Shown piece after piece: positions 3,076 to 44,660 of a DNA stretch of 64,000 nt. Every line of letters starts with the position of its first letter. Position 1 is the first letter of the stretch. The notes under the pieces are model-generated. The model saw nothing but the letters and a program-made list of their open reading frames with translations, was not told the DNA's origin and did not search any database. This DNA is from Nymphaea colorata (Eukaryota > Streptophyta > Magnoliopsida > Nymphaeales > Nymphaeaceae): contig NC_045149.1 in NCBI RefSeq assembly GCF_008831285.2, positions 21,219,035-21,283,034 on the forward strand, in the 5' to 3' direction. The position numbers and the translations under genes were made by a program.

Positions 3076-5682
3076 ATGCCTCACAAGCCAAGGTCCTTCT
3101 CTGCACCACCACCACCACCATGACCATCTTTTTTCTTTCTATTTCTTTTTCTCTCGTCTTCAACTTTGACTATCCTCTTGGAGTTCTTGACTCTGCAATT
3201 TGCTTTACATTATTTTAGTTGTTTTTTTTTCGCCTGGTGAAGCGTTATACTCGATGTGATTGTAGTTGCTTTTCAAACTTGAAACTCTTTATTTCTCTTT
3301 TCCCTTTCCTTTTCCAGCTATCGTGACTGTAGTTCTGATTCAGTTTGTTGGTTGATTGTGGAGCATTAGGAAGCTTGGGTTTAAATGAATTTGCGGTAAA
3401 TAATAATTTTGAAATTTTCATTATACAATATCTCTTTGATATGAATTTTTGCTGCTGTGGGCTTCTTTTTCTATTCATTTCTACAAGTAGTTTATGTTTA
3501 GGAGAGAAATATAGAAGCTCATCTGCAGCAGCAGCGTTTCTTTTGATCTGATTAAGCTCATATCGGTTGAGTTTCTTTTCTTTGATGAACAATGTATCTC
3601 CTTGCTAGGACTTTTCACGTTGGTACCTCTCTTTCTTTTTGGAGAAGCATTTTCATATTTATGAATCTTTTTTTATGGACTTCCTTTTTCGATACATTTC
3701 TCTTTGCAATTCTTTTGCGCAGATTCATCGTTATTTTGTCTGTCTTGCTCACTTCATGGTAGTGTCATTTTCTGCTCATAAGAAAAGATGAAAGAGTAAA
3801 CTCTTGTAAGGAGCACCACTTCTTGGCTGCACTCTTTCCTTTTACCTGGACTTTTTTCAATTGATGCTGGTTTTGCTTTCTTTAAATTGGAAACATTTTA
3901 AATTGGTTAGATTTGTAGGCAGTCGACTGAACTAGCAATTACTTTCCAAATTCTTGAACAGGACGTTCTACATGATCATCTTCATTTCTTTTGCGCCCAT
4001 TTAGATATAAATCGCCCACTTCTGAAAATTTTGATGCAAAATTTTTGAACAGGGTGTTCTACCAGATCATCTTCCCTTCTTTTGTGCCCATTTATATAAT
4101 ATAAACCGCCCGCTTCTGAAAATTTTGATCCCTACTCTCAACGCCTCCATTCCTCCATGGAAGCTATGTCTTGAACTCCGCTTCTTGAATGCAGGAACCC
4201 CAAGAAGAAAAAGAACAAGACAGCTGCTCAGAAGCAAAATACATCACATGGTTCGGTTGGAGGGACTTCACTACGGCTTGGTAATTAGTGGTCATCCTGC
4301 CTTTTGATGAAACAATACAAGTTCAAATCTCTTAGACTAACAATTGTTTCATAGGGTCTCAATCCCCTGAACGAGCACCTCTTGATGAAGGAGATGTTAT
4401 GCGCGAGTTGACTGCAGAAGAAGTTTGTGAAATCGCTGATATGCTTGAGGTCCAAGTTGTCTCAGCACGTATTCTTGAGAAACTCCAAGCGGCAGATTCT
4501 CGAAGGAGTGATGATCCTTTACCTGAAAGTGAGCATAGGCGTTTCACACAGCCAGCATTATGCTGGAAATCTGTTGATTCCAGTTGCACTAGTTGCTCCT
4601 TTCTATCTATGGCCGCAATCTTGTTCAAACTTGAGAATTCATACTTCAAAATCCATGCTAATGTCTATGGAATTATAGTATAACTTCAGTCTTTTATGTT
4701 ACCCCAAATGGTGCTCTTAATGTTAATTTGTATAACTGCAATGTTTCTAGCGACACACTTGTTTATCCTTCCACAATGACTAATCACATGTTTCCAGGGT
4801 TGCAACCAGTGGTGAGTTCAATACGTGAAAAAGCAGTCGCCTACTTGTCACAAATTCTCCACATGTTGGAAGATGATGATGGTGAGTCTTCAGAACGCTC
4901 GGAGAATTTAGCTCCTGAACCAATGCAGCGAAGAGATCAGACTACCCCGAAAGAAGAAGATCCACCACAGCCCGGACAAGTTCCTTTTCATTTTCACATA
5001 TATGCTTCAGCTTTGCACCCTGAGCCATACGTGGCGCAGGGTTGGCATTACGTTCCTGTTCTACAACATGGAGCACCACCTCCAGCAGGGTGGAACCAGT
5101 CCGTTCCTGTTCTACAACATGGAGCACCACCTCCAGCAGGGTGGAACCAGTCCGTTCCTGTTCTACAACATGGAGCACCACCTCCAGCAGGGTGGAACCA
5201 GTCCGTTCCTGTCCAAGAGCATGTAGTGCCGACTCCAGCAGGAGAATACAAATCTGTTCTTGTTCATCAACAAAGAAACGCCATAAACCACATGCCTATG
5301 CCTCATGTGCTATCCACTAACGGCCCTGGATATCTACAACACAATCAGCGAACAGAAACCTCAGCACCCCCACATGGAAACGAAGAAAGGCAGCAAGATT
5401 CTCAAGCTAACAACCCTTCTCAGAATAATTCTCTGAAAGATGGAGTTTCTGAAAATAATCCTGGAGCTCACCTATGCACCCTGGGTGAGCTATTTTACAC
5501 TTTTCTTGTTTCATTCAACTTTATTATGTCATTTTCATCTAATGTACATTGTTATGTGCTTGCAAATTTACTTGTCTATGTTTTTTGTTTCTTCTTTCCG
5601 TTTTCTTGTTGATATGGGTGCGCGATATTTTGCAGGAACACAAACAGGTGAAACCCAAGGAGAAGAATCTGCTGCCCATTAA
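3076..5682 (+). CDS. Gene A: uncharacterised multi-exon A-type family protein, Pro/Gln-rich
   Basis: I do not recognise this protein. Proposed exons are 3076-3092, 4195-4280, 4355-4528, 4798-5484 and 5636-5682, which join in one frame to 336 codons plus stop. Exons 2-5 have good AG/GT borders; exon 1 is tentative because its donor (AAG/GTCCTT) is weak, although its phase fits. Exon 2 encodes a basic NPKKKKNK cluster that could be a nuclear localisation signal. Exon 3 (residues about 36-92) carries the family segment EEVCEIADMLEVQVVS and ends in LPE. Exon 4 opens with a helical-looking segment (LQPVVSSIREKAVAYLSQIL), then an acidic patch, then a Pro/Gln/His-rich tail containing a 17-residue tandem repeat. 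The C terminus is GEESAAH. Gene B (inverted, downstream) and gene C are close paralogues. Exons 2-5 are supported by conservation in B and C; function is unknown. Confidence 0.6.
5051..5203 (+). repeat. Three perfect 51-bp tandem repeats inside gene A exon 4
   Basis: Three identical 51-bp units start at 5051, 5102 and 5153, and a diverged unit follows at 5204. Each encodes 17 residues of the form SVPVLQHGAPPPAGWNQ, so the array keeps the reading frame. Gene B has only one such unit followed by the diverged one, and gene C is cut off within the first. The expansion is therefore specific to gene A and recent, because the copies are identical. Confidence 0.95.
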
Positions 5683-5949
5683 ACAGCTCGCTCAAATAAT
5701 CAGTCTGCAATATTTTCAACCTCTCTTCTCTGTAGAGTGCTCGACAACGTAGACATGTCTCTGATTCGTTATGCGACAGTCGGGCAGATTATGTTCACCA
5801 TTTCTTACTGGCCGTCCAAGCAATTGAGTCAAGTTACTGCTAATCCTTGATGCGACTTCTTCTTTTTTCCGACTGTTTTCTACTTGCCTTTTTCAATGTC
5901 AGCTCTTATCATCCTGCAGTTTCATGTACAAAAGCACAAATTAATGAGT

Positions 5950-5955
5950 AATAAA
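5950..5955 (+). promoter_or_regulatory. Polyadenylation signal of gene A
   Basis: AATAAA lies 268 bases after the stop codon. The surrounding 3' UTR, including the block around GTTTCATGTACAAAAG, is conserved in the 3' flank of gene B, where the AATAAA is also kept. This supports both as real transcript ends. Confidence 0.6.
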
Positions 5956-5975
5956 CTTTGTTACTTCTGTAACAG

Positions 5976-7702: not shown

Positions 7703-8798
7703 CTAGGTGCATTGGCGGGCTCCAAGATTATTTTCAGGAACTCCATCTTGAAGAGAATTATTATGAGAAGGGTTGTTAGCTCGAGAATCCTGCTGCCTTT
7801 CATCGTTTCCATGTGGGGATTCTGAGGATTCTATTCGCTGATTGTGTTGTAGATATCCCGGGCGGTAAGGGGATGGCACGTAAGGCATGGGCATGTGGTG
7901 TATGGCGTTTCCATGGTGATGAACAAGAACAGATTGGTATCCCCCTGCTGCAGTCGGCTCTCCATGCTCTTGAACAGGGACGGACTGGTTCCCCCTTGCT
8001 GGAGGTGGTGCTCCATGTTGTAGAACAGGAACGTAATGCCAACCCTGTGCCACGTAAGGCTCAGGGAGCAGAGCAGAAGCATATATGTGAAAATGAAGAG
8101 GAAGTTGTCCAGGGTGTGGTGGATCTTCTTCTTTGGGGGTAGTCTGACCTCTCTGCTGCATTGCTCCAGGAGCCAATTTCTCAGAGTTTTCTGCAGAGTC
8201 ACTGTCATGTTCCTCTTGCAACAAGTGGAGAATTTTTGACAAATTTGCCGCTGCTTCTGCGCGTAATGAATTCAGCTTTGATTGCCAGCCTGGAAAAATG
8301 GGATTTAAGCATTCCAGTTGGATGGCTAAATCTGTAAATATTAGCATGAACTATGAAAAGTACTCAAGTTTGAACAAGATTGCGGGCATAGTTGGAAAAG
8401 GAGCAAGCTAATGCAACTGGAATTAACACATTTTCAGTATAATGCTGGCTGTCATGTTCTATTAAACGCCTATGCTCACTTTCAGGTAAAGGATGATGGC
8501 TCCGTCGAGAATCTGCCTTTCGGAGTTTCTCAAGAATATCAGATGAGATAAGTTGAACCTCAAGAATATCAGCGATTTCACCAATTTCGTCTGCAAACAT
8601 GCGAGCCTTCACCATGGCATCATCTTCAATAGGAGCCACTGGTTTGGCTTCTGACCCTGCAAAACAATTATCAGACAAGAGATTTGAGCATGTATTTGAC
8701 AAAAGGAAGGATTGCCGCTCATTACCATGTTGTGATGTCTCTCCAACTGGACCATGCGAAGTATTTTGCTTCTGCGCAGCTGACTTCTTCTTCTTCAT
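7703..8798 (-). CDS. Gene B: A-type family protein with early stop before the last exon
   Basis: This is an inverted paralogue of gene A and has no recognised domain. Exon 2 is 8808-8726, exon 3 is 8656-8480 and exon 4 is 8289-7702, all with AG/GT borders and the same intron phases as gene A. The first-exon ATG seen in A and C is destroyed here, so the start chosen is the in-frame ATG at 8798 in exon 2, followed by KKKKSAAQKQ. This gives 278 residues. Exon 3 carries DEIGEIADILEVQLIS. Exon 4 starts with a helical-looking segment and ends in a His/Pro/Gln-rich tail. A TAG at 7705-7703, one base before the donor, ends the frame and cuts off the 15 residues that the last exon (7488-7442) would add, which remain open and end in GEESAAH. 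B could still encode a slightly shortened protein. Confidence 0.55.
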
Positions 8799-8808
8799 CT
8801 TGGAGTCC

Positions 8809-11304: not shown

Positions 11305-13381
11305 TCATTCTTTTTGAGCATCTGATTGGCATGCAAAATCTTGAGAAGGCTGACCTTTAGTTCCAAAAAGATCCTTCCATGCAATGGTCCCAAACGGGAT
11401 TCGCGGTTTCGCACTCCTTTCAGGTCGGGTTGCAACATTTTGAGAAGCCTGATGCTGCGGCGTGTTTGCACTCGGTTCAGATGGGGATGGAACATCTTGA
11501 GAAGCCAGATCCTGAGTTTGTGGGTCTGCACTCGGTTCAAGTTGGGATGCAACATCATGAGAAACCTGATCATGAGTTTGTGGTTCTGCACTCGGTTTGG
11601 ATAGGGAATATTCAACATCTTGAGAAGCCTGACTCTGAGCTTGCGGGTTTGCATTCAGTTCAGACATGGATGCGACATCTTGAGAAGTCTGATACTGCAT
11701 TTGTGATTTTGCACTCGGTTCAGATCCGGATGCAACATCTTCAGAAACCAGCTGATACTGAGTTTGAGAAAGACCTGCGCATGCAAGTGTTGAGGACGGC
11801 GTCTGTTGGGTTTCTGCAACTTGCTGTTGATGTTGTTCATTTGCATCTTGAGGAAAATGGGAGGGAGGAAGCGAAAGAGTTGTAATGGAATCACTCAATG
11901 CCAGTCTTTCCAATGGCATTGTTGGGGGATCTGTTGGCTGATGCTGCTGCTTGTTAAGGGCTGGATATTGGGATTCAAGGAAATCTCTCCATGCAGCTGC
12001 TTCCCTGGGGGTATGCTGCTGTTCATAAGCGTAGGATTCTGGTTGGGATCCAATAACTCGGGGAGGATGTTCACGAGCGCTAATGGAATCCATAGATGCA
12101 GGTCTTCCACGTTGCTTTGGTTGGGCTCCTAGCTGCTGATGCTGCTGATGCTGCTGTACTGTTTCATAGCATTCAGATAAGGATGTAGCATTTTGAGATG
12201 TATTATACTGACTCTGCGTTTCGGCTCTCGGTTTAGATCGGAATGCAACATCTTGAGAAGCCAAGGAGTTCAAATGGGAATGCAACATCTGCGTTTCGGT
12301 TCTCTGTTGTTGATGCTCTCCACATAGAATGCAGGATTCAAATGGGGATGTAACCAAAGGAGGAGAAAGAAGACAAGGACTTCTGATTTGTAGGGCCAGT
12401 TCTGGCTTTTGGTGCCGTGAATATTCATCGAATCCAAATTGAGAGGCAACCCTTTGAGAAGGCTCATAATGAGCTTGACGAAGATTTTGCCATGAAAGGC
12501 TTCGACCGCATGGCAATCTTGGGGCTTGTTCATACTGATACTGACGAAGCTGACGTGCATGAACAAGTGGCATCTGAGGCCGTTGAACCATGCTGGCTGC
12601 TGAGTATTGGGACTGTGGCGATTCATCATGTTGAGCAGAAATAGTGTCCAGAGCAAGATTTCTCCAACAAAGGGGAGCCAAGCTGTGTCCCTGTCCAGGA
12701 GGCTCAGCGCATTGAGGTTGAAGTGTATCAAGCAGATGTGACCGTTCCAGCATGGACAGAATCTGAAACAATGTTTGAGTTACCCTCTGCGCAACCTGAA
12801 GCAGCAGAGGCGGTGCGCCTGAATAATTGGCATTAGACATATGTGGGTAAAATTTCAGTTAGGAACAACGTCTACAAAAAGAAGTATTAAACAATACATG
12901 AATGGCAGTCACATGAATAACAAAAAAGCTATTTTATAGAAATGATCGACTTCCAGAGTTCTGTTTAACCATCGCTGAGAGAGAGAGAGAGAACGATGCG
13001 AGAGACAGATAGAGAGTGAGCGAGAGAGAGGGAGATTAGAATGTTCTACAAAAGCCTAATGGTTACTCACCTTCAGGTACTTGGAAATAGTTGTGGCTCC
13101 GATCTACAGGACCAAAAAAAGGAGGTGCCTGGGAGAACTGGGATTCGAATATGGTACGTACAGTAGCCGCTAGGTCGAGTCTTCTTAGAATATCAGCTGC
13201 CAATCTTTCAATTTCAAACATTTCTCGAGTTACTTCAGCAAAAGCTTCTGCTTGAGTGGATCATGAACTTATGATCAGAGGATGATAAATATAATTGACA
13301 GGGAGATATACACAGTTTTAAAGGATGCAATATTCATTAATTACCATGTTCATGTGTCCATTTCCTTGAATTATTTGACAT
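11305..13381 (-). CDS. Gene D: large Gln-rich D-type family protein
   Basis: No known domain is recognised. Exons are 13427-13345, 13247-13071 and 12818-11305, with AG/GT borders and the same phases as gene A; exon 2 (83 bp) and exon 3 (177 bp) match gene B in length. From the in-frame ATG at 13381 in exon 2 the model gives 575 residues. An upstream exon resembling exon 1 of the array copies (about 14250-14360) contains an in-frame TAA and an altered donor, so the exon 2 start is preferred. Exon 3 carries TREMFEIERLAADILRRL and ends VPE. Exon 4 opens with a helical-looking segment (PPLLLQVAQRVTQTLFQIL), followed by about 400 residues rich in Gln, Ser and Pro with internal repeats. A GT donor just past the stop and an AG at about 11085 suggest a 3' UTR intron. 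Gene E is a near-identical copy. Confidence 0.6.
11405..11765 (-). repeat. About 60-bp degenerate tandem repeats encoding a 19-21 residue Gln/Ser unit in gene D
   Basis: Six successive units follow the pattern SQDVAS-SEPSA-PQTQ in the C-terminal third of gene D. They are imperfect, so older than the 51-bp repeats of gene A. The same units occur in E (about 30950-31310) and in the inverted partial copy at 34190-34480. Confidence 0.85.
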
Positions 13382-17678: not shown

Positions 17679-18414
17679 AAATTTCAAGAGGACAGGACGG
17701 TCTGGTTTGCTGACGATCAAAACTTGTCAGGTGATTCGAGGACATCCGCTCGCGTAGTGCAAGATTCTTTTTGAATGAATATTGTATCGTCTCAGAAATT
17801 AAACTGTTTCCCTTTCCTATCAATTATACTTATCATCCCCTAACCATAAGTCCAGAATCCACTCAATCCAAAGCCTTAGATGATTCGACTCGGGAAATGG
17901 TTGAGCTTCAAAGTTTGGCAGCCGATATTTCAAGGGCACTCAACCAAGCGCATTATTCATGCATATATGGGATTAATGGCTATTCAGATGTACTTCCCTT
18001 GCTGCTTGAAGTTTGGCAGAGGGCAGATTTGTTGCTTAATCGGATTCGGCTCATACACAGCCTCCTGGTCAGAGACAGAGCTCGGATCCCAACCCTGTTC
18101 CTGCTCAACAAGATGGGCAGCCATCATCATCACGGACTCAACACTCTGTAGCTTCCATGGTTCATCAGGTGCCCTCTGTCCATATAGATCTGGACAGTCC
18201 GTATCAGCACGAACAGCAAGCACAACCCCCACAAATCACAACTCGTTGGCTTCTTCCTCTACATTTTGATCATTCCCCATCTGAATCTGATGCATTGGAA
18301 CAGCGTCCGAATCAAGCAGAAGCTCAACAAATGATATCATTATCACCTGCATGTACAGGTCAAACAAGCAAGAGCGAAGAACAGTCCAGCCAATCTGCCT
18401 CTATCAAAAAGTGA
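17679..18414 (+). pseudogene. D-like copy U1, broken
   Basis: Exon 2 (17679-17730) is open and encodes KFQEDRTVWFADDQNLS. Exon 1 is deleted. Exon 3 has lost its acceptor (TAG changed to TAA) and its 3' half, and it runs straight into exon 4 (about 17951-17990) because intron 3 is missing. A 25-base deletion near 18057 shifts the frame in exon 4, although the last 85 codons (18157-18414, ending SASIKK) remain open in another frame. It is the counterpart of gene F in copy 1 of the segmental duplication. Confidence 0.75.
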
Positions 18415-19924: not shown

Positions 19925-20195
19925 GTCTCTGCCCACTTTCTGATGGAGGTAGATTGGCTGTACTGTTCTTAGCTCATTCTTTTTTGATCTGCACATGCAA
20001 GTGTTAGGGATAACATTTGTTGGGCTCCTGTTGGCTTTAGACTCTGTTCATATGCATCTGATTCAGATGGGAAATGATCAAAATGGGAAGGAAGAAGCCA
20101 ATGAGCTGTGATTTGTGGGGCTTGTGCTGGCTGTTGGTGCTGATACTCATGTTGCAGATGTGAATGAACAGAGCAACTTTGGAGTTGATAATTCA
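19925..20195 (-). pseudogene. D-like exon 4 fragment V1 (right arm of P1)
   Basis: Reverse complement of the C-terminal half of D-like exon 4, with frame breaks. It matches V4 at 40265-40535 essentially base for base, which shows that P1 and P4 are duplicates. Confidence 0.75.
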
Positions 20196-20215: not shown

Positions 20216-21084
20216 CTAATCTAATTATAGAATGCCAATTGTCCAACTTTATTACATTTTTTAGAATGCTGTTGAAGTATGCAGTAGCATAGACGTGCGT
20301 GTACAGGACACATGTATTGTCTTGCTGTAACTAGGAAGAGTGGATGGCAGTTTTAACTAAGTTGTAGAAGGCTGTAAAATAGCTGTGGAAATGTGCAGAA
20401 GCTGAGTAAATTTGTGTAACTAATCAAGCACTAATCAAACACGCTGTAAACTACTAGACATCAGACGCCTGATGATGAACTGGTGCAAACCGTGCTGAAT
20501 GGTCGAAACCACCACCCTTGCTGGCCAAATATGCACCCAAGAACAAGAAGGTACAGTACAATATTTGAGGATTATTCAAAAAGTGTCCTGTCTGATTTTC
20601 AACTTTTTCATTTTCATTTTTTGTAAAGATTAATTTTTTTTTTTACTGACCATAGATTAATCTTTTTTGTACACCTGGGAGAAGTATAATCTGCTTCGCC
20701 CTTCCTCCTCTCTTGGGGTCCAATCTTCTTCGGGACGTGGGTGATCTTAAGGTTACATCTGTAAGTCAATTCGTGTCAATTGGAGTGTATCGCCTGCTTC
20801 CATTTGTATTCCAAAAGACTAACACTCACAGGAATAGATGTATATACTTTTTTTACTAGACCTTTCTAACTGGAAGTTTGTCCACACATGTGCTTAATGG
20901 CTGTTGAGGTGTACTTCCCCTGCGGCTTCAAGTTTGGCGTAGGGAGTTGCAGAGGCGATCTTCCGATGGCACCAGTGTAGGAAATTCAGACGGATCTCTC
21001 TCTCTCTCTCGCTATAGGTGCAGTTCACGTATCTTAGATATACTTGTTCTACTACTAGACCTTTGTAACTGGAAGTTCGTCCAT
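20216..21084. other. Spacer between palindromic units P1 and P2
   Basis: No gene. Blocks around 20220-20420 and 20690-20850 recur in the other spacers (for example near 27240-27450, 46660-46860 and 47380-47530). The block at 20920-20990 matches the region upstream of exon 1 in the fuller copies. A TC run at 20997-21012 precedes the next unit. Confidence 0.7.
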
Positions 21085-21107
21085 ACATATGCTTAATGGC
21101 TGTTCAG

Positions 21108-21604
21108 GTGTACTTCCCCTGCTGCTTCAATGTTCGGAGAGAGGAGCTTTGTCGCTTAATCGGATTCGGCTCATGCTGTCACGTTCAAATCAGCCAAAAA
21201 CAATTGGAGACCAAAGCTCACCAGTCAATGCCAATGGCGGCCAGCATCATGGACAGAGACAAAGCTCGGCTCCCCACACTGTTGCTGCTCAACAAGATGG
21301 GCAGCCATCGTCATCACAGTCTCAACACTCATCAGTCTTGATGTTTCAGCTGCCTCAGGGGCCCTCTGTTCATATATGTCCGGACCGTTGGTATCTACAG
21401 GAACAGCCAGCATAGCCCTCACAAATCACAACTCGTTGGCTTCTTGCTTGCCATTTTGATCGTTCCTCATCTGAATCCGATAAATATGAACAGGGTCGGG
21501 ATCCAGCAGAAACTCAAAGAATGTTACCCTTAACACCTCCATGGTGAGATCAAACAAGCAAGAGCCAAGAACAGTACAGACTATCTGCCTCCATCAGAAA
21601 GTGA
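21108..21604 (+). pseudogene. D-like exon 4 copy U2, interrupted
   Basis: The acceptor CAG and the opening segment (VLPLLLQCSERGALSLNRI) are present. An in-frame TAG at 21413-21415 stops the frame at the position where F reads through; matching sequence continues to the final stop. No exons 1-3 lie upstream. Confidence 0.75.
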
Positions 21605-23659: not shown

Positions 23660-23935
23660 TCACTTTTTGATGGAGGCAAATAGTCTATACTGTTCCTGGC
23701 ACTTGCTTGTTTGATCTCTGCATGCAAGTGTTAAGGATAACACTCGTTGGGTTCTGCTGGATCCCAATGCTGTTCATATGCATCAGATTCAGATGAAGAA
23801 AGATCAAAATGGGAAGGAAGAAGCCAACAAGTTGTCATTTGGGAGGCCTGTGCTGGCTGTTGGTGTTAATACATGTGTTACGGAAATGAATGAAGAGAGC
23901 AGTTTGGGGCTTGGACATCAATGATGGGAGTTGAT
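23660..23935 (-). pseudogene. D-like exon 4 fragment V2 (right arm of P2)
   Basis: Inverted, degenerate copy of the C-terminal half of D-like exon 4 with no continuous frame. Confidence 0.7.
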
Positions 23936-24836: not shown

Positions 24837-24929
24837 GAAAAGGTGCAGTTCACGTATCTTAGATCTACTTCTTCTACTAGACCTTTCTAACTGGAAATTC
24901 GTCCATACATGTGCTTAAAGGCTGTTCAG

Positions 24930-25411
24930 GCTACTTCATTGTCGGAGAGGGGAGCTTTGTGCCTCATCGGATTCGGCTCATACAGTTATTCTCTGATCTG
25001 CCAAGTACATTTGGAGACCAACGGTCACCAGTCAATGCCAAAGGCTCCCAGCCAACTGGACAGAGACACAGGTCGGCTCCATAAACTGTTCTTTCTCAAC
25101 AAGATGGGCAGCCATCATCATCACAGACTTAACACTCGGCAGCTTCCATGGTTCAGCTGCCTCAGGTGCCCTCTATTCATACAAATATGGACAGTCCGTA
25201 TCAGCACGAACAAGCAGCACAACCCCCACAAATCACAACTTGTTGGCTTCTTCCTTTTCATTTTGATAGTTCCCCATCTGAATCTGATGCATTGGAACAG
25301 CGTCCGAATCCAGCTGAAGCTCAACAAATGTTATCCTTATCACCTTCATGTACAGGTTAAGCAAGCAAGAGCTAAGAACAGTCCAGCCAATCTGCCTCCA
25401 TCAAAAAGTCA
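24930..25411 (+). pseudogene. D-like exon 4 copy U3, broken
   Basis: It retains most of exon 4 but has frameshifts in the first half, a TAA inside the tail (about 25360), and the terminal TGA changed to TCA. No upstream exons are present. Confidence 0.75.
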
Positions 25412-26172
25412 ACACAGACATAATGTAGACTATTCTACTGATGATATTATGTAACTGTACTTGCATTAGTTTTTTCTAACTGTTGTTGCAATTTAGAATT
25501 ACAGAAGCTCTAATTCATGATGATATCCATGTGAAAAGTTTAAGGTCGTTCAAGAGTTCATTACATGAATGGCTTTTTCCTGCTGCCATTGGTAATGGGC
25601 AAGAGGGAAAGCACCTGCGGCTTTACACCAGTAACGTTACGTCTTGGACTTTCATAAATGAAACCATCAGTTTATTATGGACGTTTCTATTTTTATTAGA
25701 AATTATGCATAGTGATGCTGCCAAGATCCCATTATATTATGAAGCCGATTATAGTTAATTATAAAATTAAATTTGATACCTGATTATTTCATTTTTAACC
25801 ATGTCATTTTTCTAGTTTCTGGTCCAGTTGATCCCTAATGGACCTAATCTATTTTCTTTCTTGATGGATTCAGTTGTTCCTGGATATGAATTATTGAGTA
25901 TTAATGTGTCTTATTGAGTTGGATTTAGAGGAGAATCACGACACCCACAAATATTAATGCGGTGCAAGTGGTTTGGATTACGATCCTAGAACTTAATTTT
26001 TCAAATCGATCTCATTTTTTCTTAATTTTAGATACCTCAACCCAATATCAACATCTCTCAATGCCAAGAGATTGGGAGAGATGTTGAATCGATAAACGCA
26101 AAATTCATGTCTAATAATTAAAAAAGAACAAGAGGCGATCGCCCTTAAAGAAGAGAGGGGAAGAGAAAGTCC

Positions 26173-26945: not shown

Positions 26946-27203
26946 TCACTTTCTGATGGAGGTAGATTGGCTGTACAGTTCTTGGCTCTCTCTTTTTTGA
27001 TCTGCACATGCAAGTGTTAAGGCTAACATTTGTGGGGCGGCTGCTGGCTTTAGACTCTGTTCATATGCATCAGATTGAGATGGGAAACGATCAAAATGGG
27101 AAGGAAGAAGCCAACGAACTGTGATCCGTGAGGCTTGTGTTGGCTGTTGGTGCTGACATTCATGTTGTAGATGTGAATGAACAGAGGAATTTGGGGCTTG
27201 CAC
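26946..27203 (-). pseudogene. D-like exon 4 fragment V3 (right arm of P3)
   Basis: The best-preserved minus-strand fragment: 85 codons remain open, including QASRITVRWLLPSHFDRFPS and a C terminus ending STSIRK that aligns with SASIKK of F. It lacks the opening segment and all upstream exons. Confidence 0.7.
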
Positions 27204-28227: not shown

Positions 28228-30334
28228 ATGCCTCACAAGCCAAGGTCCTTCTCTGCACCACCACCATGACCATCTTTTTTCTTTCTATTTCTTTTTCTCG
28301 TCTTCAACTTTGACTATCCTCTTGGAGTTCTCGACTCTGCAATTTGCTTTACATTATTTTAGTTGTTTTTTTTCGCCTGGTGAACCGTTATACCCGATGT
28401 GATTGTAGTTGGTTTTCTTAAAACTTGAAACTCTTCATTTCTCTTTTCCCTTTCCTTTTCCAGCTATCTTTATTGTAGTTCTGATTCAGACTGTAGGTTG
28501 ATTGTGGAGCATTAGGAAGCTTGGGTTTAAATGAATTTGCGGTGAATAAGAATTTGAAGTTTTAATCTATTTGATATGAATTTCTGCTGTTCGCTTCTTT
28601 TTCTATTCATTTCTACAAGTAGTTTATATTTACGAGAGAAATATAGAAGCTCCTCTGCTGCAGCAGCGTTTCTTTTGATCTGATTAAGCTCATATCGGTT
28701 GGATTTCTTTTCTTTGATGAACAATATCTCCTTGGTAAGACTTTTCACGTTTGGCACCTCTCTTTCTTTTTGGAGAAGCAGTTTTATATTTATGATTTTT
28801 TTTTATGAGTTTCCTTTTTTGATACATTTCTCTGTGCAATTCTTTGCGCAGGTTCATGGTTACTTTGTCTGTCTTGCTCACTTCATGGAAATGTCATTAT
28901 CTGCTCATAAGAAAAGATGAAAGAGTAAACTCTTGCAAGGAGCACCACTTCTTGGCTGCATTCTTTCCTTTTACCTAGTGATTTTTCAATTGATGCTGGT
29001 TTGGCTTTCGTTAAATTAGAAACATTTTAAATTGGTTAGATTTGTAGACAGTCGACCGAACTAGCAATTACTCAAACTCTTGAACAGGATGTCCTACATG
29101 ATCATCATCCTTTCTTTGTGCCCATTTATATATAAATCGCCCACTTCTGAAAATTTTGATGCAAAATTCTTGAACAGGATGCTCTACCAGATCATCTTCC
29201 CTTGTTTTGTGCCCATTTATATAATATAAACCGCCTCCTTCTGAAATTTTTAATCCCTACTCTCAACGCCTCCATTCCTCCATAGAAGCTATGACTTGAA
29301 CTCCGCTTCTTGAATGCAGGAACCCCAAGAAGAAAAAGAACAAGACGGCTGCTCAGACGCAAAATACATCACATGGTTCGGTTGGAGAGACTTCACTACG
29401 GCTTGGTGATTGGTGGTCATACTGCCTTTTGAAGATACAATACAAGTTGAAACCTCTTCTACTAACAATTGTCTGATAGGGTCTCAAGCCGCTGGACCAG
29501 TACCTCCTGTTGAAGGTGATTGTATGCGCGAGTTGACTGCAGAAGAAGTTTGTGAAATCGCTGATATGCTTGAGGTCCAAGTTGTCTCATCACGTATTCT
29601 TGAGAAATTCCAAGCGGCAGATTCTCGAAGGAGTGATGATCCTTTACCTGAAAGTAAGCATAGACGTTTCATACAGCCAGCATTATGCTGAAAATCTGTT
29701 GATTCTAGTTGCACTAGTTGCACTAGTTGCTCGCTTTTATCTACAGCCGAATCTTGTCCAAACTTGAGAATTCTTCAAAATTCATGCTAATGTCTATGGA
29801 ATTGTAGTATAACTTCAGTCTTTTATGTAACCCCAAATGGTGCTCTTAATTTGTAATTTGTATAACTGCAATGTTCTTAGCGACACACTCGTTTATCCTT
29901 CCACAATGACTAATCACATTTTCCCAGGGTTGCAACCAGTGGTGAGTTCATTACGTGAAAAAGCAGTCGCCTACTTGTCACAAATTCTCCACATGTTGGA
30001 AGATGATGATGGTGAGTCTTCAGAAAGCTCAGAGAAATTGGCTCCTGATCCAATGCAGCAAAGAGATCAGACTACCCCAAAAGAAGAAGATCCACCACAC
30101 CCTGGACAAGTTCCTCTTCGTTTTCACATATATGCTTCTGCTCTGCTCCCTCAGCCATGGGTGGCGCAGGGTTGGCGTTACGTTCCTGTTCTACAACATG
30201 GAGCACTACCGGTCCACCTCCAGCAGGGGGGAACCAGTCCGTTCCTGTTCAAGAAAAGGGACGAAAAATGTAATACGAGACGGAAAGTCTGTAACAACGG
30301 GTTACTCTTTTATTGTTTGTACACATTGCCATGA
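28228..30334 (+). pseudogene. Gene C: truncated A-type copy fused to D-type 3' flank
   Basis: Exons 28228-28244 (tentative), 29320-29405, 29480-29653 and the start of exon 4 at 29928 match gene A closely in sequence, length and phase. Exon 2 again encodes NPKKKKNK, and exon 3 EEVCEIADMLEVQVVS. In exon 4 an 8-base insertion near 30209 shifts the frame. At about 30256 the A-type sequence stops and abuts sequence that in copy 1 lies downstream of gene D (about 10870). The frame runs on into this foreign sequence and ends at 30334, giving 227 codons with an unrelated tail of about 45 residues. The Pro/Gln-rich tail and last exon are absent. It may be expressed as a short chimeric protein, but it looks like a rearrangement product. 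Confidence 0.65.
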
Positions 30335-31222
30335 AGCCATTACAGGTGACACAGTAATATCCGCTCATAAGGAAACGGGAAGCAAATGGAACAAATCTGA
30401 AGGAAGTTTCTCAAGTCCCAAAAGTGGCTTTTTGATTGAAACGCTTGCACAGGTGACAACAATTGTTTGAACGTAATCTGCCAAACTGTTATATGGAAAA
30501 TCACAATCGATGAGAATAACACCACGGACCCTAGGGATTGAATCGATTGCAGTGTGCGTTTCTGAGAACAGACTGTCGAAGAGAAACGTATCGTAACTGC
30601 ATCACTTTCCTTACTTCCTGCAACATAGAATGCACATGTCACTTAGCCGCTTCCTTTCTAGTCCACGTTAGGGAACGAGTCCCTCTTCATACAAGCAGAG
30701 AACCCATTCTAGTTGATTCTGTAATATATGATTACTCCATTATTATATACATTACCAACCAGCAGTTAGTCTTAATCTGCTCGCATTAACATGAAGACAA
30801 CGCCCCTAAGATGATAAAACGAGAGAACAACTCACCCCAATTTGACCAATCATTCTTTTTGAGCATCTGATTGGCATGCAAAATCTTGAGAAGGCTGACC
30901 TTTAGTTCCAAAAAGATCCTTCCATGCAATGGTCCCAAACGGGATTCGCGGTTTCGCACTCCTTTCAGGTCGGGTTGCAACATTTTGAGAAGCCTGATGC
31001 TGCGGCGTGTTTGCACTCGGTTCAGATGGGGATGGAACATCTTGAGAAGCCAGATCCTGAGTTTGTGGGTCTGCACTCGGTTCAAGTTGGGATGCAACAT
31101 CATGAGAAACCTGATCATGAGTTTGTGGTTCTGCACTCGGTTTGGATAGGGAATATTCAACATCTTGAGAAGCCTGACTCTGAGCTTGCGGGTTTGCATT
31201 CAGTTCAGAAGTGGATGCGACA
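30256..31222. repeat. Left arm of a 1-kb inverted repeat flanking gene E
   Basis: This segment (3' flank and C-terminal coding part of E) reappears inverted at about 34178-35175, with about 3 kb between the arms. Both arms contain the about 155-base segment missing from copy 1 near 11018. Confidence 0.85.
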
Positions 31223-32944
31223 TCTTGAGAAGTCTGATACTGCATTTGTGATTTTGCACTCGGTTCAGATCCGGATGCAACATCTTCAGAAACCAGCTGA
31301 TACTGAGTTTGAGATAGACCTGCGCATGCAAGTGTTGAGGACGGCGTCTGTTGGGTTTCTGCAACTTGCTGTTGATGTTGTTCATTTGCATCTTGAGGAA
31401 AATGGGAGGGAGGAAGCGAAAGAGTTGTAATGGAATCACTCAATGCCAGTCTTTCCAATGGCATTGTTGGGGGATCTGTTGGCTGATGCTGCTGCTTGTT
31501 AAGGGCAGCATATTGGGATTCAAGGAAATCTCTCCATGCAGCTGCTTCCCTGGGGGTATGCTGCTGTTCATAAGCGTAGGATTCTGGTTGGGATCCAATA
31601 ACTCGGGGAGGATGTTCACGAGCGCTAATGGAATCCATAGATGCAGGTCTTCCACGTTGCTTTGGTTGGGCTCCTAGCTGCTGATGCTGCTGTACTGTTT
31701 CATAGCATTCAGATAAGGATGTAGCATTTTGAGATGTATTATACTGACTCTGCGTTTCGGCTCTCGGTTTAGATCGGAATGCAACATCTTGAGAAGCCAA
31801 GGAGTTCAAATGGGAATGCAACATCTGCGTTTCGGTTCTCTGTTGTTGATGCTCTCCACATAGAATGCAGGATTCAAATGGGGATGTAACCAAAGGAGGA
31901 GAAAGAAGACAAGGACTTCTGATTTGTAGGGCCAGTTCTGGCTTTTGGTGCCGTGAATATTCATCGAATCCAAATTGAGAGGCAACCCTTTGAGAAGGCT
32001 CATAATGAGCTTGACGAAGATTTTGCCATGAAAGGCTTCGACCGCATGGCATTCTTGGGGCTTGTTCATACTGATACTGACGAAGCAGACGTGCATGAAC
32101 AAGTGGCATCTGAGGCCGTTGAACCATGCTGGCTGCTGAGTATTGGGACTGTGGCGATTCATCATGTTGAGCAGAAATAGTGTCCAGAGCAAGATTTCTC
32201 CAACAAAGGGGAGCCAAGCTGTGTCCCTGTCCAGGAGGCTCAGCGCATTGAGGTTGAAGTGTATCAAGCAGATGTGACCGTTCCAGCATGGACAGAATCT
32301 GAAACAATGTTTGAGTTACCCTCTGCGCAACCTGAAGCAGCAGAGGCGGTGCGCCTGAATAATTGGCATTAGACATGTGTGGGTAAAATTTCAGTTAGGA
32401 ACAACGTCTACAAAAAGAAGTATTAAACAATACATGAATGGCAGTCACATGAATAACAAAAAAGCTATTTTATAGAAATGATCGACTTCCAGAGTTCTGT
32501 TTAACCATCGCTGAGAGAGAGAGAGAGAGAACGATGCGAGAGACAGATAGAGAGAACGATGCGAGAGACAGATAGAGAGTGAGCGAGAGAGAGGGAGATT
32601 AGAATGTTCTACAAAAGCCTAATGGTTACTCACCTTCAGGTACTTGGAAATAGTTGTGGCTCCGATCTACAGGACCAAAAAAGGAGGTGCCTGGGAGAAC
32701 TGGGATTCGAATCTGGTACGTACAGTAGCCGCTAGGTCGAGTCTTCTTAGAATATCAGCTGCCAATCTTTCAATTTCAAACATTTCTCGAGTTACTTCAG
32801 CAAAAGCTTCTGCTTGAGTGGATCATGAACTTATGATCAGAGGATGATAAATATAATTGACAGGGAGATACACAGTTTTCTAAAAGGATGCAATATTCAT
32901 TAATTACCATGTTCATGTGTCCATTTCCTTGAATTATCTGACAT
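30850..32944 (-). pseudogene. Gene E: near-identical copy of gene D with a frameshift in exon 3
   Basis: Exon 4 (32354-30850) is fully open for 500 codons and differs from D by a few substitutions and one 9-base deletion in a Gln/His tract. Exon 3 (32809-32634) is 176 bases rather than 177 because a run of seven A (plus strand) in D at about 13114 is six in E at about 32677. The frame then meets a stop a few codons later (TAG). Exon 2 also has one extra T upstream of the ATG at 32944. E is therefore called a pseudogene, but both differences are in homopolymers, so a base-call error is possible; if corrected, E would encode about 572 residues. Confidence 0.6.
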
Positions 32945-34177: not shown

Positions 34178-35175
34178 TTTTTGCAAACCCGCAAGCTCAG
34201 ACTTCTCAAGATGTCGCATCCATGTCTGAACTGAATGCAAACCCGCAAGCTCAGAGTCAGGCTTCTCAAGATGTTGAATATTCCCTATCCAAACTGAGTG
34301 CAGAACCACAAACTCATGATCAGGTTTCTCATGATGTTGCATCCCAACTTGAACCGAGTGCAGACCCACAAACTCAGGATCTGGCTTCTCAAGATGTTCC
34401 ATCCCCATCTGAACCGAGTGCAAACACGCCGCAGCATCAGGCTTCTCAAAATGTTGCAACCCGACCTGAAAGGAGTGCGAAACCGCGAATCCCGTTTGGG
34501 ACTATTGCATGGAAGGATCTTTTTGGAACTAAAGGTCAGCCTTCTCAAGATTTTGCATGCCAATCAGATGCTCAAAAAGAATGATTGGTCAAATTGGGGT
34601 GAGTTGTTCTCTCGTTTTATCATCTTAGGGGCGTTGTCTTCATGTTAATGCGAGCAGATTAAGACTAACTGCTGGTTGGTAATGTATATAATAATGGAGT
34701 AATCATATATTAAAGAATCAACTAGAATGGGTTCTCTGCTTGTTATGAAGATGGACTCGTTCCCTAACTTGGACTAGAAAGGAAGCGGCTAAGTGACATG
34801 TGCATTCTATGTTGCAGGAAGTAAGGAAAGTGATGCAGTTACGATACGTTTCTCTTCGACAGTCTGTTCTCAGAAACGCACACTGCAATCGATTCAATCC
34901 CTAGGGTCCGTGGTGTTATTCTCGTCGATTGTGATTTTCCATATAACAGTTTGGCAGATTGTGTTCAAACAATTGTTATCACCTGTGCAAGCGTTTCAAT
35001 CAAAAAGCCACTTTTGGGACTTGAGAAACTTCCTTCAGATTTGTTCCATTTGCTTCCCGTTTCCTTATGAGCGGATATTACTGTGTCACCTGTAATGGGT
35101 TCATGGCATTGTGTACAAACAATAAAAGAGTAACCCGTTGTTACAGACTTTCTGTCTCCTATTACATTTTGCTTC
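34178..35175. repeat. Right arm of the inverted repeat flanking gene E
   Basis: Reverse complement of about 30256-31222. It includes a plus-strand open frame (34090-34584) holding the last Gln/Ser repeat units of the D/E proteins and the true C terminus ending DAQKE. At one diagnostic codon it reads Met as in D (VASMSE), not Thr as in adjacent E, so it was not copied from the present left arm. The join to other sequence is at about 34170-34195. Confidence 0.8.
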
Positions 35176-37350: not shown

Positions 37351-38684
37351 ATGGGACGCAAACGATCAAGGAAAAACCACTCGGAGGAGGTAAGTACCAA
37401 AGTCTTGAACTGCACCATCATCGCCCTTTCTCTTTATTTTCTCTACTTCTTGCGCTTCTTGGTGTCTTTCTTACTGTCCTACTTCTTGCACCAACGTCTT
37501 GAACTGCACCATCAATCTTTAATCTCCATCGAATCTTTCCTCTTTTGGGTGCCGTGGTGGCTGATTTCTGAAATGAATCTTAATAATTAACCTGCATATA
37601 TTAGTTTTTTCTTCGGTTTTTGGCCTTGTTCTTTTTCTTTGCTAATGTCTTGTGGCTGTTCATTATTCTATTTCAAATTCTTGGTTGATTTGGAACCTTT
37701 TGAACCGGTTCTTGCGTGTAGAAATTTCAAGAGGACAGGACGGCCTGGTCTGCTGACGATCAAAACATGTCAGGTAATTCAAGGAAATCAGCTCGCGTAG
37801 TACAAGATGCTCATTGAATGAATATTGTATCGTTTCAGAAATTAAACTGTTCACCTTTCCTGTCAATTATACTTATCATCCTCTAACCGTAGGTCCAGAA
37901 TCCAATCAAGCAGACGTCTTAGATGAACCGACTCGAGAAATGGTTGAGCTTCAAAGTTTGGCAGCTGATATTTCAAGGGGACTCAACCAAGCGCTTTTTA
38001 TATGTTTCACACTCGCCCGCCATTCCTCTCAGGAGTATGGTCCTGGTCGCCGCCGCAATTCTCTGCGAGTACCTGAAAGTAATTCAAGCAACTATTAGGC
38101 TTTATATATATATATATATATATGTGTATATATATATAATTGCAGTTCACGTATTGTACCTTTACTTCTTTTACTAGTCCATTCTAACTGAAAATTCGTC
38201 CATACATGGGATTAATGGCTGTTCAGATGCACTTCCCTTGCTGCTTCAAGTTTGGCAGAGGGCAGGTTTGTTGCTTAATCGGATTCGGCTCATACTGCCA
38301 CACTCTTATCTGGCAGATACACAGCCTCCTGGTCAGAGACACAGCTCGGACCCCAACACTGTTCCTGCTCAACAAGATGGGCAGCCATCATCATCACGGA
38401 CTCAACACTCTGCAGCTTCCATGGTTCAGCTGCCTCAGGTGCCCTCTGTCCGTATAGATCTGAACAGTCCGTATCAGCACGAACAGCCAGCACAACCCCC
38501 ACAAATCAGAACTCGTTGGCTTCTTCCTCTACATTTTGATGATTTCCCATCTGAATCTGATGCATTAGAACAGCGTCCGAATCAAGCAGAAGCTCAACAA
38601 ACGCTATCCTTATCAACTGCATGTACACGTCAAACAAGGAAGAGCGAAAAACAGTCCAGCCAATCTGCCTCCATCAAAAAGTGA
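37351..38684 (+). CDS. Gene F: best-preserved D-like family gene, 244 residues
   Basis: Four exons join cleanly: 37351-37389 (GAG/GTAAGT donor), 37722-37773, 37893-38078 and 38227-38684. All have AG/GT borders and total 735 bases without a stop. The start ATGGGACGC gives a basic N terminus, GRKRSRKN, a possible nuclear localisation signal. Exon 2 encodes KFQEDRTAWSADDQNMS. Exon 3 carries the family segment TREMVELQSLAADISRGL and ends RVPE. Exon 4 opens with LPLLLQVWQRAGLLLNRI, then a Gln/Ser/Pro-rich tail ending SASIKK. Exon order and phases match genes A and D, but exon 4 is about a third the length of D's. Intron 3 contains a TA microsatellite at 38103-38138. Its inverted partner V4 lies downstream. 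No known domain is recognised. Confidence 0.6.
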
Positions 38685-40264
38685 ACACAGACATAATGTA
38701 CACTATTCTACTGATGATAGTATGTAACTGTACTTGCATTAGTTTTTTCTAACTGTTGTTGCAATTTAGAATTACAGAAGCTCTAATTCATGAAGATATC
38801 CATTTGAAAAGTCTAAGGTCGTTCATGGGTTCATTACCTGAATTGCTTTTTCCTGCTGCCATTGGTAATGGGCAAGATAGAAAGCACCTGCGGCTTTACA
38901 CCAGTAACGTTATGTCTTGGACTTTCATAAATGAAACCATCAGTTTATTATGGACGTTTCAATTTTTATTTGAAATTATACATAGTGACTCTGCCAAGAT
39001 CCCATTATATTATGAAGCCGATTATAGTTAATTATAAAATTAAATTTGATACTTGATTATTTCATTTGTAACCATGTAATTTTTCTAGTTTCTGGTCCAG
39101 TCGATCTCTATTGGGCCTAATCTATATTCTTTCATGATGGATTCAGTTGTTCCTGGATATGGATTATTGAGTAATAATAAGGAGAATCACAAGACCCACA
39201 AACATTAATGCGGTGCAAGACGTTTGGATTACGATCCTTGAACTTAATTTTTCAAATCGATCTCATTTTTTCTTAATTTTAGATACCTCAACCCAATATC
39301 AACATCTCTCAATGCCAAGAGATTGGGAGAGATGTTGAATCGATCAATGCAGAATTCATGTCTAATAATTAAAAAAGAACAAGATGCAATCGTCCTTAAA
39401 GAAGAGAGGAGAAGAGAAAGTCCTAATATATATATATATATATATATAGCAGTTCATGAAAGCTTGCAGAGGTGCTCCACAGGCAAAAACGCCAACTAAA
39501 AATAATGTAAAGCAAATAAGAACTCATGCATAGAAGAGTATTATCATTCCTAGTTGCAAAGACAAGAACTCCAAGAGAATAAAAAAAGTTGAAAATGAGA
39601 GATTTTTTATGTCAATTTAAATTTTTTAAATTTATATTAAAATTTTTAAATTTATGTCAATTAATTTTATTTTTTTTTGGACGGGAGGCCAGGGCCTCTG
39701 CTGGCTCCACCCTTGGGTTGAGTGTCGTTTATACAAAATCTGGAAAAAATGAAAAAAGTTGCAAAAACTTTCAGCGTGCAAATCTCTCGTCTACATGAAT
39801 CCAAATCCATACATCTTGTATGCATTAATATCTGCGGGTGTCCAGCGATTTTTCTCTCGATTAAACAAAAGATATTAGGCCCAACAGTGACCAACTGGAC
39901 CAGAAACAGGAATCACATTTGTTTAAACGATACTTGTTACATATAAAAGCTGTTAATTTCATGCTTCCTAACATAATTGCATATTGTTGAAGGAATCACA
40001 TTTGGTTAAACGATTTGAAATTTTGGTTTCATTTGTAAAGTCCAAGGCAATCATATTGGTGTAAAGCCGCAGGTCCGTACTGCTTTCTCCCTTGCCCATT
40101 ACCAACGGTGGCAGGAAGAGAGGTGCGGTTCAGGTAATGAACTCTTGATCGCCTTCAACTATTTGTGGATATCACGATGAATTAGAGCTTTTGAATTTCT
40201 AAATTGTGGGGGCAGTTAGAAGAATAATGGCTAGTGTGAGTACAGTCTCATATATCATCACTAG

Positions 40265-40535
40265 GATAGTATACATAATGTCTCTGCTCACTTTCTGATG
40301 GAGGTAGATTGGCTGTACTGTTCTTAGCTCATTCTTTTTTGATCTGCACATGCAAGTGTTAGGGATAACATTTGTTGGGCTCCTGTTGGCTTTAGACTCT
40401 GTTCATATGCATCTGATTCAGATGGGAAATGATCAAAATGGGAAGGAAGAAGCCAATGAGCTGTGATTTGTGGGGCTTGTGCTGGCTGTTGGTGCTGATA
40501 CTCATGTTGCAGATGTGAATGAACAGAGCAACTTT
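40265..40535 (-). pseudogene. D-like exon 4 fragment V4 (right arm of P4)
   Basis: Inverted degenerate copy of the C-terminal half of D-like exon 4, facing gene F tail to tail. Matches V1. Confidence 0.75.
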
Positions 40536-41076: not shown

Positions 41077-41078
<2 letters not shown>

Positions 41079-41161
41079 TGCAGTTGACGTATCTTAGATA
41101 TACTTCTTCTACTGGACCTTTCTAACTGGAAATTCGTCCATACATGTGCTTAATGGCTGTT

Positions 41162-41597
41162 GCGGTGTGCTTCCCCTGCTGCTTCAATGTTCGGAGAGGG
41201 GAGCTTTGTTGCTTCATCGGATTCGGCTCATGTTGCCAGCCTCCTGGACAGAGACAAAGCTCGGCTCCCCACACTGTTGCTGCTCAAGAAGATGGGCAGC
41301 CATCGTCATCACAGTCTCAACACTCAGCAGCCTTGATGGTTCAGCTACCTCAAGGGCCCTCCGTTCATATTTTTCCGGATCGTTGGTATCAACAGGAACA
41401 GCCAGCATAGGCCCCCACAAATCACAACTGGTTGGCTTCTTGCTTGCCATTTTGATCGCTCCTCATCCGAATCCGATGCGTATGAACAGGTCGGGATCCA
41501 GCAGAAACTCAAAGAATGATCCTTAACACTTGGATGCAGAGATCAAACAAGCAAGAGCCAAGAACAGTACAGACTATCTGCCTCCATCAGAAAGTAA
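41162..41597 (+). pseudogene. D-like exon 4 copy U5, broken
   Basis: The acceptor CAG of exon 4 has become GCG. About 90 bases of the first half are missing, and an in-frame TAG at 41408-41410 cuts the tail at the same place as in U2. No exons 1-3 lie upstream. Confidence 0.75.
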
Positions 41598-42950: not shown

Positions 42951-43749
42951 ATCTTTTTTTGTAAAAGCGTTTGTCATTTTTCTGTTTTGCCGGCTTTGCT
43001 CTAATTTTATGTGCTTTCATGTGTAACCTTTTGTGTGTGGCAGCTATGGATATAGGAAAACATTGTATGCCAACCACAAAAATCTTTGTTCATTATTTTT
43101 TTCCTTTTCATTTTTATTTTCTTGATGCTTCAAGAGAGTGTAAGAGTGGGATTCGTTTGGAATTACAACGAAACAAGAAAGATTTGGACATCTTTGAACG
43201 AAAACATCAATATCAGTTTTTCAAAAAGAAAATAAATAAAAATAATAATTTACGAAAAGTGCGTTATAAAGACATGCATCCTCCCCTGCAGGAGACAGAG
43301 AAAGAGAGAGATGAGAAAGCGTCCAACACGCAGAGGAATGCAAGATCGGACCAAAACGATCAAGGAAAAATCACTCGGAGGAGGTGAGTACCAAAGTCTT
43401 GAACTGCACCATCATCGCCGTTTCTCTTTATTTTCTCTACTTCTTGCGCTTCTTGGTGTCTTTCTTACTGTCATAGAATCATCAAACGGAACCTGCTTCT
43501 TTAATCTCCATCGAATCTTTCCTCCTTTGCGGTGCCGTGGTGGCTGATTTCTGAAATGAATCTTAATAATTAACCTGCATATATTAGTTTTTTCTTCGGT
43601 TTTTGGCCTTGTTCTTTTTCTTTGCTAATGTCTTTTGGCTGTTCACTATTCTATTTCAAATTCTTGGTTGATTTGGAACCTTTCGAACTGGTTCTTGCAT
43701 GTAGAAATTTCAAGAGGACAGGACGGTCTGGTCTGCTGACGATCAAAAC

Positions 43750-44081
43750 ATGTCAGGTAATTCGAGGAAATCCGCTTGCGTAGTGCAAGATGCTTATTGA
43801 ATGAATATTGTATCGTCTCAGAAATTAAACTGTTTACCTTCCCTATCAATTATACTTATCATCCTTTAACCATAAGTCCAGAATCCACTCAAGCAGACGT
43901 CTTAGATGAATCGACTCGAGAAATGGTTGAGCTTCAAAGTTTGGCAGCCGATATTTCAAGGGGACTCAACAGAGCGCTTTTTATATGCTTCATACTCGCC
44001 CGCCATTCCTCTCAGGAGTCTGGTCCTGGTCGCCGCCGCAATCCTCTGCGAGTACCTGAAAGTAATTAAGCAACTATTAGG

Positions 44082-44116
<35 letters not shown>

Positions 44117-44660
44117 TGCAGTTCATGTATTGTACATATACTTCTTTTACTAGTCCTTTGTAACTGGAAATTCGTCCATACATGGGATTAATGGCTGTTC
44201 AGGTGTACTTCCCTTGCTGCTTCAAGTTTGGCAGAGGGCAGATTTGTTGCTTAATCGGATTCGGCTCATAGTGTCACACTCTAATCTGGCAGATACACAG
44301 CCTCCTGGTCAGAGACACAGCTTGGACCCCAACACTGTTCCTGCTCAACAAGATGGGCAGCCATCATCATCACGGACTCAACACTCTGCAGCTTCCATGG
44401 TTCAGCTGCCTCAGGTGCCCTCTGTCCGTATAGATCTGAACAGTCCGTATCAGCACGAACAGCCAGCACAACCCCTACAAATCAGAACTCGTTGGCTTCT
44501 TCCTCTACATTTTGATGATTTCCCATCTGAATCTGATGCATTAGAACAGCGTCCGAATCAAGCAGAAGCTCAACAAATGCTATCCTTATCACCTGCATGT
44601 ACACGTCAAACAAGGAAGAGCGAAAAACAGTCCAGCCAATCTGCCTCCATCAAAAAGTGA
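43750..44660 (+). CDS. D-like copy U6, possibly functional with alternative start and splice site
   Basis: Close paralogue of F. Exon 2 is 43705-43756 and exon 4 is 44203-44660, the latter open and the same length as in F. The F start codon is absent and F's exon 3 acceptor has mutated (TAG to TAA). Using the in-frame ATG in exon 2 (43750) and the downstream acceptor AAGCAG at 43896, as inferred for gene D, exon 3 becomes 43897-44061. All phases then join to 209 residues. The product keeps TREMVELQSLAADISRGL and the SASIKK end but lacks the basic N terminus. If that acceptor is not used, this is a pseudogene. The open frames around 43000-43385 upstream show no domain. Confidence 0.42.

Follow-up and report, generated by a model that had tools for sequence, protein, structure and literature searches.

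A possible orphan gene family in a tandem and inverted cluster of the Nymphaea colorata genome

The stretch of DNA considered here (the window) comprises 64,000 nucleotides of Nymphaea colorata (contig NC_045149.1 of RefSeq assembly GCF_008831285.2, positions 21,219,035 to 21,283,034 of the forward strand), from a genome reported as 409 Mb with 31,580 genes (PMC7015852). Its main content is an array of related genes and gene fragments, here called A-type (A, B and C), D-type (D1, D2 and a fragment) and F-type (F, F2 and many broken or partial copies, including E). An earlier sequence-only reading had proposed an unrecognised, fast-diverging plant gene family at positions 3076 to 44660, and the array extends beyond 44660 to about 55.4 kb of the window. 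The gene letters used here were assigned by coordinate and may differ from the D, E and U6 of that reading. Full open frames with splice sites were found in five copies (A, B, D1, F and F2), and C is truncated yet open (Table 1). Intactness of all the genes originally listed did not hold, because D2 and the copy at 17.7–18.4 kb are frameshifted, in addition to the truncation of C.

Three of the genes coincide with existing predictions. According to a script check, spliced B (8798-8726 + 8656-8480 + 8289-7703) is identical, letter for letter, to the protein of NCBI LOC116266318, spliced F to both isoforms (X1 and X2) of LOC116266087, and spliced F2 to the protein of LOC126410590; that is, these N. 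colorata entries are the same genes as B, F and F2. NCBI already predicts all three as uncharacterized proteins, with no function in the record names, and the word “unrecognised” was therefore too strong. The same identities largely bear out the proposed four-to-five-exon plan, except that D1 has no readable first exon.

In the A-type genes, exon 2 (83–86 bp) and exon 3 (174–177 bp) are followed by a long exon 4, all with GT/AG sites. The reading frame of gene A is open across exons 2–5 (330 amino acids, aa), or for 336 aa when a 17-bp candidate exon 1 is joined in the correct phase; its tail carries three 51-bp repeat units (5050-5230), compared with one in B. Exon 4 of gene C continues into other sequence near 30254, and its frame is open for 227 aa. 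The frame of D1 begins at an ATG in exon 2 and is open for 576 aa, ending in a repetitive Gln/Pro/Ser-rich tail with repeat units of about 60 bp (11400-11770). D exon 4 runs without a stop over 504 codons, compared with a maximum of 379 among 1000 random sequences of similar dinucleotide make-up, and D1 differs from its duplicate D2 by 7 changes in 500 codons. The X2 isoform of F uses a later exon 4 acceptor (before 38317) and is 30 residues shorter than X1.

Table 1 Related genes and gene copies in the window (positions counted from its first nucleotide)
Feature	Span	Strand	Exons or state
Gene A	3076..5682	+	exon 1 3076-3092 (candidate), exon 2 4195-4280, exon 3 4355-4528, exon 4 4798-5484, exon 5 5636-5682
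Gene B (NCBI LOC116266318, 278 aa)	7703..8808	-	exon 2 8808-8726 (ATG 8798), exon 3 8656-8480, exon 4 8289-7703
Gene C, copy of A	28228..30334	+	candidate exon 1 28228-28244, exon 2 29320-29405, exon 3 29480-29653, exon 4 from 29928
Gene D1	11305..13381	-	coding exon 2 13381-13345, exon 3 13250-13071, exon 4 12818-11305
D2, near-identical duplicate of D1	about 30850..32823	-	exon 3 frameshift
D exon 4 fragment, inverted	34197..34584	+	
Gene F (NCBI LOC116266087)	37351..38684	+	exons 37351-37389, 37722-37773, 37893-38078, 38227-38684 (isoform X1); 39/52/186/458 bp
F2 (NCBI LOC126410590)	43750..44660	+	coding 43750-43756, 43882-44061, 44293-44660 (X2-like exon 4); exon 1 ATG lost
E, broken F-type copy	17679..18414	+	lacks exon 1; end of exon 3 lost together with intron 3; frame shifted by a 25-bp deletion
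p21, exon-4-only F-type copy	21076..21604	+	stops
p25, exon-4-only F-type copy	24898..25411	+	stops and frameshifts
p41, exon-4-only F-type copy	41133..41597	+	one stop and frameshifts
p48, exon-4-only F-type copy	48134..48592	+	one stop and frameshifts
p52, exon-4-only F-type copy	52016..52544	+	stops
m20, partial exon 4 tail copy	19934..20173	-	one stop
m24, partial exon 4 tail copy	23660..23872	-	one stop and one frameshift
m27, partial exon 4 tail copy	26946..27156	-	tail frame open to usual end
m40, partial exon 4 tail copy	40288..40528	-	one stop
m46, partial exon 4 tail copy	46361..46575	-	frameshift close to end
m51, partial exon 4 tail copy	50743..50932	-	tail frame open to usual end; net loss of 24 bases
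m55, partial exon 4 tail copy	54563..54776	-	tail frame open to usual end

The genes share a common plan downstream of the first exon. The exon lengths of A, B, C, F and D1 put introns 2 and 3 in phase 1 throughout, and intron 1 has phase 2 in both A and C and phase 0 in F; the claimed sharing of intron positions and phases therefore applies to introns 2 and 3 only. The small second exon and the narrow size range of the third exon were confirmed, with F (52 and 186 bp) standing beside the A-type values given above. The protein layout read from the sequence consists of a basic N-terminal patch (encoded by exon 2 in the A-type and by exon 1 in F), one segment each from exon 3 and from the first part of exon 4, and an extended tail rich in Gln, Pro and Ser.

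Comparison of the sequences supports the earlier proposal that the A-type and D/F-type genes form one family. Alignment of the exon 3 segment and the start of exon 4 with hhalign (A/B/C versus D/F/F2) gave a score of 26.98, and none of 300 column shuffles did as well (mean 10.8, maximum 20.0); in this alignment the exon 3/4 junctions of the two types coincide to the residue; an earlier hhalign run on the whole alignments had given a probability of 21 and a P of 0.001. Smith-Waterman scores tested against 2000 shuffles were matched in 0 shuffles for A-D, 0 for B-D and 5 for C-D, and in 55 and 60 for A with F and F2, 251 and 227 for B with F and F2, and 215 and 238 for C with F and F2; a smaller run with 1000 shuffles gave 0 for A-D, 4 for B-D, 35 for A-F and 166 for B-F. 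Direct A-F and B-F similarity is thus weak and A-D similarity strong, so F is joined to the A-type mainly through D, and the direct A-F similarity alone is not convincing.

Outside this cluster, the searches for relatives returned almost nothing. Protein database searches with A-type, D and F queries gave 1, 0 and 3 matches, respectively, all from N. colorata. Such a search requires shared 5-residue words, and A and D1 themselves were not returned as database proteins with the A-type and D queries, the best 7990 candidates having been scored for D. No Pfam family was matched at E up to 10 by A, an F/F2 hybrid or D exon 4, or at E up to 1 by the LOC116266318, LOC116266087 X1 and LOC126410590 proteins. 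A likeness of the A-type protein to cerebral dopamine neurotrophic factor in the PDB sequence search (E 0.032) was rejected as a single weak match to which the fold search gave no support, and the same search with F/D gave no match. A literature search, including the three gene identifiers, found nothing on this cluster among the titles and abstracts listed. As far as searched, these results support a lineage-restricted orphan family with no relative found outside N. colorata, a plant whose lineage split early from other flowering plants, and agree with the earlier statement that no described family matches it.

The AlphaFold2 models, built on five-row alignments, contain two helices followed by a low-confidence tail both in B (helices 37-75 and 83-111) and in F (42-76 and 94-119), with a mean predicted local distance difference test (pLDDT) score of 50.4 and 48.1, respectively. 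In ten-residue blocks, pLDDT ranged from 51 to 76 in the helices and from 35 to 53 in the tail. At this low confidence, the models suggest that both types consist of two helices and a disordered tail. Helix 2 begins around the residue whose codon is split by the exon 3/4 junction (84 in B, 93 in F); the residues of F missing from X2 are 94-123, and X2 would therefore lack the modelled helix 2. The hydropathy-charge index, just below zero in all six proteins tested, is weakly consistent with disorder. In the helical-moment test, p was low in A for the exon 4 segment (0.007) and in D for both exon 4 (0.001) and exon 3 (0.03), and the values were not low for F (0.12 and 0.06) or for exon 3 of A (0.90) and B (0.92); the exon 3 result weighs against an amphipathic helix 1 in the A-type. 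Foldseek comparison with PDB gave 3 matches up to E 10 for the B model (best 5.7) and 286 for the F model (best 0.34), designed helical oligomers being on top among the best 50 matches listed for F; these F matches, led by a designed helical oligomer, were set aside as uninformative.

The pattern of change between copies was examined through the ratio of non-synonymous to synonymous rates (dN/dS, omega) and through the survival of the frames. Between A and B, 279 codons contain 146 substitutions (42.2 synonymous and 103.8 non-synonymous) and no stop, giving an omega of 0.70, identical to the median of a neutral simulation (0.70), and the residues therefore look unconstrained. The A/B frame survives in 0.8% (starting from B) or 0.4% (starting from A) of the neutral runs, and all five internal coding indels (3, 3, 6, 3 and 102 bases) are multiples of three; among 11 intron indels, two of which may be edge gaps, this is true of 2. 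By exon, A/B omega was 0.29 in exon 2 (27 codons, p 0.039), 1.0 in exon 3 and 0.68 in exon 4; divergence was 18, 23, 14 and 8.5% in exons 2–5 and 23, 20 and 23% in the introns, exons 4 and 5 being less diverged than the introns. Between F and D, 129 substitutions in 140 codons gave an omega of 0.85 (neutral median 0.74), again with no stop, an outcome seen in 1.5% of the neutral runs.

Between F and F2, 17.5 non-synonymous versus 2.5 synonymous changes were counted (neutral simulation p 0.034); compared with F exon 4, F2 has 8 and 0, respectively; the region from exon 4 to the 3′ end, differing by 1.5–2.2% against 6–10% in the introns, may be a conversion tract. In pairwise comparison with F exon 4, the ratio was defined in 13 of 14 copies and ranged from 0.66 to 1.62, and six of these 13 pairs (E, p21, m24, m27, m46 and m55) exceeded 1.14, the upper 5% point of the neutral simulation, with the limit that all pairs share F, broken copies are included and the simulation was made at a single divergence. 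For the eight plus-strand exon 4 copies, omega was 1.23 under one model, and the gain of the other model over omega 1 was 0.99 log units (p about 0.16, calculated by hand). Taken together, the comparisons support residue change at about the neutral rate, with frames that appear to have stayed open beyond chance for A/B. The claim of rapid evolution was retained in this sense and not in that of adaptive change.

The further copies illustrate how the array has been built. The A-D-spacer block is present twice, the second copy being C-D2-spacer (90.8%, 97.9% and 98.7% identity, respectively), which is without B and adjoins E and F. Plus and minus tail copies interleave, with arms of 201–276 bases that are 77–82% complementary, the nearest pairs lying 1.2 kb apart. 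A sensitive protein scan of the window located exon 3 at A, B, C, D1, D2, E, F and F2, with noise only elsewhere; the p and m copies, 12 in number, gave no exon 3 match. In-frame stops are present in eight copies (p21, p25, p41, p48, p52, m20, m24 and m40) and a net frameshift in E and m46; m27, m51 and m55 contain indels relative to F exon 4, yet the matched stretch stays open to the usual end, although these copies are without exons 1–3.

Our preferred interpretation, to which we give about an even chance of being correct, is a young, protein-coding, lineage-restricted orphan family in a tandem and inverted cluster with birth-and-death turnover, probably encoding a small interaction protein. 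It is supported by the five full open frames, the exact NCBI matches, the retained A/B and F/D frames, the in-frame A/B indels, the lower divergence of A/B exons 4 and 5, the long stop-free D exon 4, the joint alignment and two-helix models of the A-type and D/F-type, and the few fragments located outside the window. Two isoforms modelled by NCBI for a gene without known relatives would, from the usual working of that pipeline, suggest transcript support. In such a protein, the helix pair would act as a dimerisation or docking surface and the tail, the length of which has changed between A and B through in-frame repeats, would be a flexible arm for interaction or regulation. Nuclear targeting could come from the basic patch, use of the later exon 4 acceptor in F would yield a second form without the helix 2 surface, and the likeliest role would be that of an adaptor or modulator of conserved regulators. 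A more far-reaching version is considered distinctly unlikely: selection would protect no more than the exon plan, an open frame and the bare helix pair, residues would be free or pushed to change, the acceptor would be a helix 2 switch, and the product would be a nuclear regulator that genetic conflict has shaped in an early-branching flowering plant. Several observations weigh against the preferred interpretation. The helix pair is weakly supported because mean pLDDT is only 50 and 48, and the candidate exon 1 of gene A has a poor donor (GTCCTT). A/B exons 2 and 3 (18% and 23%) are near the intron divergence, and A/C exons (3.5–6.9%) are nearly as diverged as the introns (6.7–14.9%). Codon likelihood gave an omega of 0.745 for A/B/C (p 0.11) and 1.96 for F/F2/E (p 0.07), both indistinguishable from 1. 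Among the 14 F-type exon 4 copies beyond F, only F2 is clean, 10 are broken by stops or net frameshifts, and the other three are tail fragments with an open frame.

Much of this would also fit a dead or dying cluster, in which once-coding remnants now evolve neutrally and the open copies are merely unbroken so far. Such an explanation, doubtful but deserving real weight, is favoured by the neutral A/B ratio, by the similar divergence of A/C exons and introns, by the 10 broken F-type copies, by the reduction of all seven minus-strand copies to tails, and by loss of the exon 1 ATG in F2 and of the whole exon 1 in E; it fits poorly with the A/B frame retention, reached so rarely in the neutral runs and accompanied by in-frame indels only, with the F/D result, with the three minus-strand tails open to their usual end and with the two NCBI isoforms. 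It is unlikely that the genes are a diverged offshoot of a conserved plant family that is already known. Relatives could well be missed because the protein changes fast, in particular by a word-based database search with a limited number of scored D candidates, but Pfam gave no family even at E 10, the PDB sequence search gave just the one weak A-type match and none for F/D, and the best fold matches were poor for both F and B. A non-coding locus, whose inverted copies form long hairpins feeding small RNAs and whose reading frames are by-products, would account for the alternating complementary tails and the many broken copies; however, the frames of A, B, D1 and F are open with proper splice sites, the indels are in-frame and an Rfam search of the window gave no match, which makes this explanation very improbable. 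Least credible is the reading that the genes encode host proteins caught in an arms race, be it a conflict with pathogens, over reproduction or within the genome, and that selection favours residue change: the excess of non-synonymous changes in F/F2, the F/F2/E omega and the six elevated F exon 4 pairs point that way, but the likelihood tests (p 0.07, and about 0.16 for the eight plus-strand copies) do not secure it, the pairs have the limits stated above, the F/F2 similarity may reflect conversion, and A/B/C omega is below 1.

As a probable young orphan family with birth-and-death turnover, the cluster can be compared with two known systems. Tandem birth-and-death gene clusters of plants are marked by block duplication, inverted copies and many broken copies. 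Block duplication and inverted and broken copies are common to them and the N. colorata cluster, whereas Pfam gave no known domain in the latter. TaFROG is described as an orphan protein of Pooideae with little-known cellular function; the source suggests disorder as one possible mode of action of orphan proteins, and TaFROG was detected in the nucleus together with a NAC transcription factor (PMC6737021). The likeness concerns a lineage-restricted plant protein and its working, not membership in one family; TaFROG belongs to another lineage, and the N. colorata cluster differs in its many tandem copies and modelled helix pair. The cluster is a clean case of how copies of a plant gene family can multiply and decay inside a single locus of about 50 kb, where open copies lie beside broken ones. 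Since frame and layout seem to be kept while residues drift, it could be used to test what function requires in fast-evolving orphan proteins.

Pieces resembling A exon 1 are located, in addition to A and C, at 9640 (-), 22411 (+), 22954 (-), 49436 (+), 49872 (-) and 53736 (-). The ATG is retained in seven of eight aligned pieces, the exception being that of B, and an exon 4 copy lies 1–3 kb downstream of each piece in the same orientation, which is weak evidence alone given the density of the array. The stretch 3′ of the F-type stop (25412-25777, 38685-39050 and 44661-45026) contains a 92-codon stop-free frame in three copies; between F and F2 it differs by 1.5%, compared with 2.2% in exon 4, and is thus at least as similar.

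When D exon 4, B and F were each used as a single-protein query against the genome, at least two fragments were located outside the window: one of 273 bp on C5 and, on C9 (L064 5077-7188), a broken copy of the F type. This count is a lower bound. The latter copy retains intron sequence and was therefore transferred as DNA, not via spliced RNA; a mobile-element origin was provisionally set aside, as by-eye inspection of its edges revealed no terminal repeats or target duplications.

At the left edge of the window, a copia-type reverse transcriptase-like fragment was noted at 297-521 (+) (Pfam RVT_2, E 2.3e-7, slightly below the curated cut-off). On the other side, the array adjoins an HD-ZIP IV type gene (56847-63962, -) with a PDF2-like C-terminal domain at 56847-57263 (E 1.1e-27). 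Within the span of this gene, a candidate leucine-zipper-like stretch was recognised by eye at 63693-63962 (-), where Pfam gave no match. The HD-ZIP IV type gene could serve as a synteny anchor.

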